Positions 13,225 through 24,275 of a DNA stretch of 41,226 nt are shown piece by piece. The stretch lies in contig JAMXLK010000026.1 in the NCBI GenBank assembly GCA_024281075.1, positions 1 to 41,226 of the forward strand, in the 5' to 3' direction. Each line of letters starts with the position of its first letter. The first letter of the stretch is position 1. The DNA is from Vulcanimicrobiia bacterium (GTDB taxonomy: Bacteria; Vulcanimicrobiota; Vulcanimicrobiia; Vulcanimicrobiales; Vulcanimicrobiaceae). Under the pieces are notes generated by a model. It ran no database searches and was not told the DNA's origin. It was given only the letters and a program-made list of their open reading frames with translations. The position numbers and the translations under genes are program-made.

Positions 13225-13374
13225 GGCGCCTCGCCACCACAACATAGTGGTTCGGGGACGCTCGCTTTTTCGCATCACGCAAAAAGCTGCTCGCCTCGTC
13301 GTCGCTCTCGCCATCCATGGCTCCGCTCCTCCCTTCACACGCCCCTTACCACTACGTTGTAGCGGCGGGGCGCC
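13225..13374. repeat. Dispersed palindromic element, copy A
   Basis: A 150-bp intergenic element between sigB/F and alaS. Its outer 28 bp are inverted repeats: 13225-13252 and the complement of 13347-13374 agree at 23 of 28 positions (GGCGCC..CGCC.C.ACAAC with TAGTGGT). Between them lies a core (13249-13352) that matches copy B in the ATP synthase operon, on the opposite strand, at about 101 of 105 aligned positions. The core contains a hairpin, GCTTTTTCGC-ATCAC-GC(-)AAAAAGC (13264-13287), with one base missing compared with copy B. No transposase is encoded. It resembles a MITE or a REP/BIME-type element. A short reading frame across the core is not convincing as a gene. Confidence 0.8.
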
Positions 13375-13416
13375 GAGCGGCCCCGACGCGATATGTCGCG
13401 GCTCTCGGGCGGGGCA

Positions 13417-13444
13417 AACCACCATGTTGTAGCGGCGAAGCGCG
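13417..13444. repeat. Extra solo copy of the element-A terminal repeat
   Basis: This 28-bp segment repeats the right-hand end of copy A (13347-13374) in the same orientation: AACCACCATGTTGTAGCGGC against TACCACTACGTTGTAGCGGC over the first 20 bases. It ends 5 bases before the sigB/F stop codon. It suggests that the terminal unit can exist without the core, as single REP units do. Confidence 0.65.
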
Positions 13445-13449
13445 GGAAG

Positions 13450-14253
13450 CTATTCTGCCAGGACGGCGCGGAGTTTCTCGAGGGCCTTCGCTTGGAGGCG
13501 AGAGACGTGCATTTGCGAGACGTTGAGACGTTTGGCGATTTCCGTTTGGGAGACGGACTCGTAGAAGCGCAGATAAATGATGACGCGCTCGCGACCGCTG
13601 AGGGCACGAAACGCGCGCTCCAAGTTCGCGCGGTCTTCGAGCAGCTCCAAGCCGGCGTCCGAAACGCCGACCGTATCGGCAAGCGTCTGCGATTTCTTGT
13701 CCGTTTCGCCGGAGACTTCACTGTCGAGCGAAAGTAAGTTGTAGGCCTGCCCGAGTTCCTGCGCTTCAAGAATCTCGTCCTCGCCGGCTTTGAGATGTTC
13801 GGCCAGCTCCGCAACGGTCGGACTGCGGCCCAGCTCGATGGCAAGCTTGTCGCTCGCGCGGTTGACGGCGAGATTGAGCTCCTGCAAACGGCGTGGAACT
13901 TTGACCGCCCAGCCTTTGTCGCGGAAGTAACGCTTGATCTCGCCGACGATCGTCGGCGTTGCGTACGTCGTGAACTCGACGCCGCGCTCCAAATCAAAGC
14001 GGTCGATCGCTTTGAGCAAGCCGACGGTTCCGACCTGAACTAAATCGTCGAGCGGCTCGCCGCGATTCGCAAATCGTACGGCGAGAAACCGAACCAGGTT
14101 GAGATGAACGACGACGAGTTCGTCACGTAAGCTTTCGTATTCGGCATCGCGGCGCTCCGGGCACTCGTCGTGGCGCTTTCGCGCACCGATGAAACGCGCG
14201 AATAGCGCCCGCGTCCGCTCGCGGTCCGGCCGAGAATCTTCCCGTTCTTGCAC
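13450..14253 (-). CDS. sigF: Sigma factor of the SigB/SigF/SigG group
   Basis: A 267-residue sigma-70-family factor of the stress/sporulation group. Region 2 is clear (LVRFLAVRFANRGEPLDDLVQVG and LKAIDRFDLERGVEFTTYAT in successive blocks, then GEIKRYFRDKGW). Region 3 spans about 120-180, and region 4.2 is a helix-turn-helix (SQTEIAKRLNVSQMHVSRLQ). It directs RNA polymerase to stress promoters and should be held inactive by the anti-sigma factor encoded just upstream. The start is GTG 14253; the first ~30 residues are charged and probably flexible. It closes a six-gene operon. I use sigF loosely; sigB is equally fitting. Confidence 0.93.
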   Translation of the reverse strand: MQEREDSRPDRERTRALFARFIGARKRHDECPERRDAEYESLRDELVVVHLNLVRFLAVRFANRGEPLDDLVQVGTVGLLKAIDRFDLERGVEFTTYATPTIVGEIKRYFRDKGWAVKVPRRLQELNLAVNRASDKLAIELGRSPTVAELAEHLKAGEDEILEAQELGQAYNLLSLDSEVSGETDKKSQTLADTVGVSDAGLELLEDRANLERAFRALSGRERVIIYLRFYESVSQTEIAKRLNVSQMHVSRLQAKALEKLRAVLAE

Positions 14254-24140: not shown

Positions 24141-24275
24141 GCGTGCCACGTGGGTGGTGAGGGGCGTGTGAAGGGAGGAGCGGAGCCACGGATGGCGAGA
24201 GCGACGACGAGACGAGCAGCTTTTTCGCGTGATGCGAAAAAGCGAGCGTCCCCGAACCCACCCATGTGGCGCGCG
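24141..24275. repeat. Dispersed palindromic element, copy B, inside the atp operon
   Basis: A 135-bp element that fills most of the atpG-atpD gap, inverted relative to copy A at 13225-13374. The core (24154-24258) matches copy A at about 101 of 105 positions. Its ends form an inverted repeat, GCG.GCCAC.TGGGTGG on each side (24141-24157 and complement of 24259-24275), whose inner sequence differs from the ends of copy A. A perfect 10-bp hairpin GCTTTTTCGC/GCGAAAAAGC (24219-24228, 24234-24243) lies in the core. It has no U-tail, so it does not look like a terminator. The remaining gap to atpD (24084-24140) shows only the atpD ribosome site. Confidence 0.8.

Follow-up and report, generated by a model that had tools for sequence, protein, structure and literature searches.

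Two copies of a branched palindrome in the window

The window (the whole 41,226-nucleotide stretch of DNA analyzed here) contains two intergenic sequences, which we call copies A and B, that lie far apart and in opposite orientation. We asked what kind of element they represent and how it comes to occupy its sites. A sequence-only reading had proposed that A and B share a core and belong to an unrecognized, dispersed, non-autonomous element whose core is kept while its ends vary. A within-genome search bore out the shared core: about 105 bp align between 13249-13352 (+) and 24154-24258 (-) at 96% identity (E 9.9e-43), and the arms on either side diverge outside their innermost 6-12 bases. With its arms, copy A occupies 13225-13374 (+; covariance model E 2.5e-27), and copy B occupies about 24142-24275 (-; left end approximate; E 2.8e-29). 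Pfam searches identified the neighbors of copy A as a sigma-factor gene and alaS, and those of copy B as atpG and atpD; no transposase family was found among the searched genes adjoining the two copies. The element sequence is GC-rich, and we found neither a T-run terminator at A or B nor a promoter-like site near them.

The same reading described the ends as terminal inverted repeats. Complementary arms do exist, but they are better regarded as the outer stem of a branched fold, and may in part be sequence of the insertion site. In copy A this outer stem (P0) is formed by a left arm at 13225-13257 (+), with GGGG at its end, and a right arm at 13342-13374 (+), with CCCC at its start; 22 of 26 positions are complementary between 13225-13250 and 13349-13374. 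Enclosed by P0 are hairpin P1 (13265-13286, +; CTTTTTCGC-ATCAC-GCAAAAAG), hairpin P2 (13297-13333, +) with the conserved tip GCTCTCGCCATCCATGGCTCCGC, and a conserved 3' junction, CTTCACACGCCCC (TTCACACGCCCC), at 13334-13345 (+). The corresponding parts of copy B are the left arm GCGCCACATGGGTGG (24258-24272, -), P1 (24220-24242, -), whose 3' arm is one base longer than in A, the P2 tip GCCATCCGTGGC (24185-24196, -), and the right arm CCACCCACGTGGC (24145-24157, -), with 12 of 13 positions complementary between GCCACATGGGTGG and CCACCCACGTGGC. Folded as single strands, A and B both scored better than 200 of 200 shuffles on either strand (z -5.4 to -8.2).

Between copy A and the sigma-factor stop codon (13375-13450) lies another imperfect palindrome, and beside the stop codon is an additional direct copy of A's right arm (13418-13443, +; 85%). 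A palindrome related to the one at 13375-13450 is found in genome G013, inverted and on the other side of the element.

The element is distributed across the class and lies between genes

When we searched the window's own genome (G000; a 2.47 Mb draft, 86.5% complete) by BLAST with the core, A and B were the only good copies, whereas a covariance model recovered seven at E <= 1e-4. The same held for the order as a whole: plain core similarity gave matches in 57 of 103 genomes, and the covariance model gave matches in 79, as well as in four genomes of another family in the class. The rest of the phylum yielded one weak match (E 9.5e-5), and this near-absence allows genomes beyond the class to serve as a negative control for the model. 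An exact core 20-mer, searched in one genome per species across 84,980 species, was found only in Candidatus Eremiobacterota records. Matching genomes carry 1 to 22 copies, counts that are lower bounds because 23-33 candidates were scored per genome, and 24 of the 103 order genomes, including every listed g11 member, are without the element. Plasmids and phages gave no element match; a single 20-mer match among viral contigs proved on reading to have no element around it, and we took it as chance. Three copies in the window's genome (L089, L090, and L091) represent a divergent subfamily (GACACATTCGTCGCGC...) that BLAST does not align to A and that the structural model detects.

We also determined the genomic contexts of 95 copies, using a purpose-written codon-usage gene finder whose gene calls are approximate. 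All but one lie outside genes, in 30 cases between convergent, in 56 between tandem, and in two between divergent genes, with six undecided at contig edges. Most are therefore at the 3' ends of genes, and the core often starts 40-60 bases past the end of the upstream gene, which is about the length of one arm. This bears out the intergenic location claimed for A and B. The sequence-only reading had also left room for there being only these two copies, or for the core being a known RNA family. Copies are in fact numerous across relatives, no Rfam family scored above its gathering score, and a literature search on the element found nothing. Altogether, this is a class-wide palindrome family that is undescribed in Rfam and in the literature searched, and it adds a repeat family recognizable by its structure to a phylum known mainly from metagenomes.

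The stems covary, and the fold favors one strand

All copies have a common fold, in which a long outer stem encloses two hairpins with fixed loop motifs. Read in A's orientation, the outer arm is followed by GGGGACGC[T/C]CG, a P1 arm, a loop of the ATCCT or ATCGT type, and the second P1 arm; then by CT[G/A]CTC, a P2 arm, GCTC[T/C]CGCCATCCTGGCTCCGC, and the second P2 arm; and finally by CTCA.A.GCCCC and the other outer arm. The family unit is about 130-160 bp long, consisting of a core of ~85 bases flanked on each side by inner-arm sequence of up to about 30 bases. The lower stem of P2 pairs well in other subfamilies but weakly in that of copy A, for which automatic scoring of this stem across copies was too loose and was set aside.

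The stems differ in sequence among aligned copies yet remain complementary. Among 19 diverse copies, both sides had changed in 30 of 40 pairs, and the covariation score was 0.495 as against 0.126 for shuffled alignments, none of 500 of which scored as high; shifting the partner columns by one reduced the score to about 0.1. In P1, 92 copies together contain 814 Watson-Crick pairs (98%), three G.T, and four A.C, so that covariation in this hairpin is nearly free of wobble pairs. The outer stems behave differently. In 95 copies, whose outer stems span 15-61 alignment columns (median 39), A.C mismatches outnumber G.T by 167 to 77, and this excess is located in the inner 20 arm bases (99 versus 20, p 9e-14). 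Because an A.C mismatch is a G.T or G.U on the complementary strand, the single-stranded fold of that strand appears to be tolerated or selected; for copy A, too, the strand favored by the fold appears to be the complement of the orientation used here. The excess has the same sign whether the neighboring genes are tandem along the element, tandem against it, or convergent, and the preference is thus independent of read-through transcription.

Strong covariation, conserved loops, and a location at gene 3' ends are what one would expect of a structured RNA, either a 3'-UTR element or a small RNA, that is under functional constraint, drifts compensatorily in its stems, and is occasionally duplicated. 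The strand bias of the inner-arm wobble pairs also fits, as does the core, which a comparison of orthologues found to be more conserved than the flanks and arms; this greater conservation could reflect a function in the host. We nevertheless consider an RNA rather unlikely. P1 has almost no G.U pairs on either strand, the polarity does not follow gene direction, and presence is patchy, with the element missing from nearly a quarter of the order's genomes. Single-stranded DNA and RNA would not be separable from the sequence alone, but the former is favored because the complementary strand is antisense to its tandem neighbors in 38 of 56 cases, and because A and B are without a promoter-like site nearby.

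Gain of a copy at a new site

Copies at unrelated sites, together with presence and absence at orthologous sites, are the general mark of a non-autonomous mobile element, and both are found here. One copy in G009 (L095) lies at a site whose orthologues in G010, G025, and G024 are empty. With several relatives empty, one species has acquired the element at a new site, and this is the single case in which the direction of change is settled. The inner ~30 arm bases of L095 match those of the copy at atpG in the same genome (L096). More generally, copies in one genome that have similar cores have about 6-30 arm bases in common and are unrelated beyond them. The sequence-only reading of a dispersed element with a kept core and variable ends is therefore borne out by this gain and by the copies in relatives.

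In other pairs, the core lies within a hairpin that a relative has without a core. The clearest case is L144 in G068, compared with L268 in G069: the latter is an empty hairpin, GCACGAAGAGCCTCG, an 8-base loop, and CGAGGCTCTTCGTGC; in G068, identical outer arms enclose the element. Shorter examples are L131 (G028) compared with L239 (G027), and L146 and L152 (G068 and G070) compared with L272 (G069). These pairs may represent either insertions or deletions. Two further pairs, L100/L252 and L140/L262, have empty sites without a hairpin. By eye, no target duplication was recognized in the occupied and empty pairs, in which the arms obscure the ends of the element.

Two side observations concern palindromes without an intact core. 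L264 (G068:C33:258600-260300) is a long palindrome in which only GGGGACGCCCG remains of the core, and it looks like an element with an internal deletion. G069 contains long, near-perfect, core-less hairpins 3' of genes (L261, L268, and L259), some with a CCCTA-containing loop, which may form a separate class of hairpin.

Arms and core orientation differ at fixed sites

The atpG-atpD site, where copy B lies, is occupied in some members of the genus and empty in others (G014, G018, G019, G020, G021, and G023). At occupied sites the arms reach into the stop codon of atpG, and synonymous differences between genomes are mirrored in the opposite arm, the arm pairs being GTAGAGTGA/TCACTCTAC in G010, GTCGAGTGA/TCACTCGAC in G024, and GTTGAGTGA/TCACTCAAC in G022. 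The orientation of the core is opposite between G012 and G022, and that in G000 is opposite to that in G009, G010, and G024. At another orthologous site (L094 in G009 and L101 in G010), the cores differ at one position and are inverted relative to each other, and the arms are unrelated; G013 has a different subfamily there. Across the arm columns of six orthologous pairs, 27 had two-sided changes that preserve pairing and 40 had one-sided changes, which indicates that compensation in the arms is common and that homogenization is incomplete. The left flank of L123 (G027) is as in L129 and its right flank as in L128 (both G028), which may mean that two copies recombined or that the assembly is chimeric here.

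The atpG sites suggested the idea that arms always arise as an inverted duplication of the target flank at insertion. We demoted this to one possibility, because L095, L144, and L131 indicate arms that are element-borne or pre-existing. Nor is it enough to suppose the converse, that the arms are pre-existing hairpins in every case, given L100 and L140.

Such changes of the arms and of core orientation at fixed sites raise the question of whether there is any transposition at all. Similar arms could instead let gene-end palindromes trade cores as cassettes, by template switching or recombination, so that cores would spread with no need for an enzyme of their own. Quasipalindromes are known to gain more perfect arms through template switching (PMC7202029), and the flank mosaic of L123 is what such exchange would leave, if that copy is not chimeric. 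Such exchange requires matching arms in donor and target, however, and L095 carried ~30 arm bases into a site where its relatives do not have them. We regard exchange without transposition as improbable.

On balance we favor the explanation that the family is a non-autonomous mobile palindrome of the class Eremiobacteria, which travels between gene-end hairpins, probably as a folded single strand, and in which template switching rewrites the arms. The element would move as one strand, the complement of A's orientation, folded into a branched hairpin. During replication this strand would enter the loop of a gene-end hairpin or land beside one, loop entry being the preferred route. Thereafter the inverted arms would recombine or undergo template switching with each other, which would rewrite them, fuse them with the host hairpin, and flip the core. 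A mobilizing enzyme would act in trans, and any role in the host, such as 3'-end protection or termination, would be incidental. We put forward more tentatively a stronger version, in which the element would be defined by its folded shape and not by its end sequence: a branched, single-stranded hairpin entering the loops of other hairpins, with arms copied from arm to arm in DNA, and with much of the covariation stemming from the mutation mechanism rather than from selection. The family offers a natural test of how short palindromes become mobile in the absence of a RAYT, and of how much compensatory covariation, usually taken as proof of RNA function, comes from template switching in DNA hairpins. 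If template switching does produce such covariation, an additional control is needed when RNA families are sought in palindrome-rich genomes.

Relationship to known repeats

The element is similar in lifestyle to REPs and MITEs yet fails defining tests of each. Like the GTAG-tagged, RAYT-associated REPs, BIMEs, and REPINs, it is a short intergenic palindrome found genome-wide, mainly 3' of genes and often in opposite-facing pairs. It differs in its length of ~150 bp, its several helices and branched fold, and its long, copy-specific outer stem; REPs are 20-40 bp long with stems of 5-13 bp (PMC3733652). Pairs facing in opposite directions a few hundred bases apart are frequent (L135, L143, L157, L147, and L114).

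The sequence-only reading had suggested mobility of the REP/BIME type through a RAYT (Y1) transposase. In addition to palindromic form and location, a tag beside P1 on the complementary strand is suggestive of this, being GTAG in 48 and GCAG in 30 of 95 copies, but it is neither in 17, and is thus not invariant. Y1_Tnp (PF01797) occurs in 4 of the 103 order genomes and in none of the window's genus (g1), and G056, which has the most matches to it (three), gave none to the element. This distribution led us to reject RAYT mobilization for nearly all carriers, and as a general explanation we consider it very improbable. No mobilizing enzyme was found, PF01797 being the one enzyme family searched across genomes. 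The near-absence of Y1_Tnp is the reason that we describe the element as non-autonomous, moved by a putative helper.

CGTC-tagged REPs are palindromic repeats without a dedicated transposase, with a stem of 8-9 bp, a loop of 4-5 bases, and a CCA tail (PMC3733652). In our family, 85 of 95 copies carry CGTC at one core end. Those REPs have A-T at the first two stem positions, however, whereas our P1 has ten pairs, the first of them G-C; the element is also several times longer and has three stems, and a CCA tail was not seen in the element alignments. Bacterial MITEs such as ERIC, Correia, and QMITE are non-autonomous, intergenic, and stably folded, with inverted repeats (PMC10969869), as is our element. 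The terminal inverted repeats of MITEs are conserved, and young MITEs show target duplications; our element differs in being GC-rich and in its arms, whose identity is lost after about 6-30 bases even among copies with cores that are 85-99% identical. IS elements such as IS1397 and ISPpu9 target REP palindromes (PMC1525189, PMC8450116), and insertion tied to palindromes is a likeness to our element; these elements encode a transposase, whereas ours is geneless and is found within hairpins of diverse sequence. Mitochondrial double-hairpin elements, which we mention as a lead only, resemble our element in being mobile hairpins whose loops are conserved and whose stems are compensated; they differ in being organellar and shorter.

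A sponge RNA whose GGAT loops would titrate CsrA is barely credible: 81 of 95 copies do have GGAT toward the 5' end of the complementary strand, the region of the P2 tip, and CsrA is encoded in 85 of 103 genomes, but about a third of P1 loops have no GGA, and CsrA is equally present in element-free genomes (G014, G026, and the g11 members), so its co-occurrence does not discriminate.

A second palindromic repeat (CCTGAGC...GTCGAAGG / CCTTCGAC...GCTCAGG) is frequent beside or around elements (L147, L151, L164-L171, L089, L090, and L102), and in L102 a piece of it breaks up the tip of the P2 hairpin. In G079, an exact 9-base motif of another palindromic repeat lies within 70 bases of six of nine copies, compared with 1.9% of random windows even if one mismatch is tolerated there.
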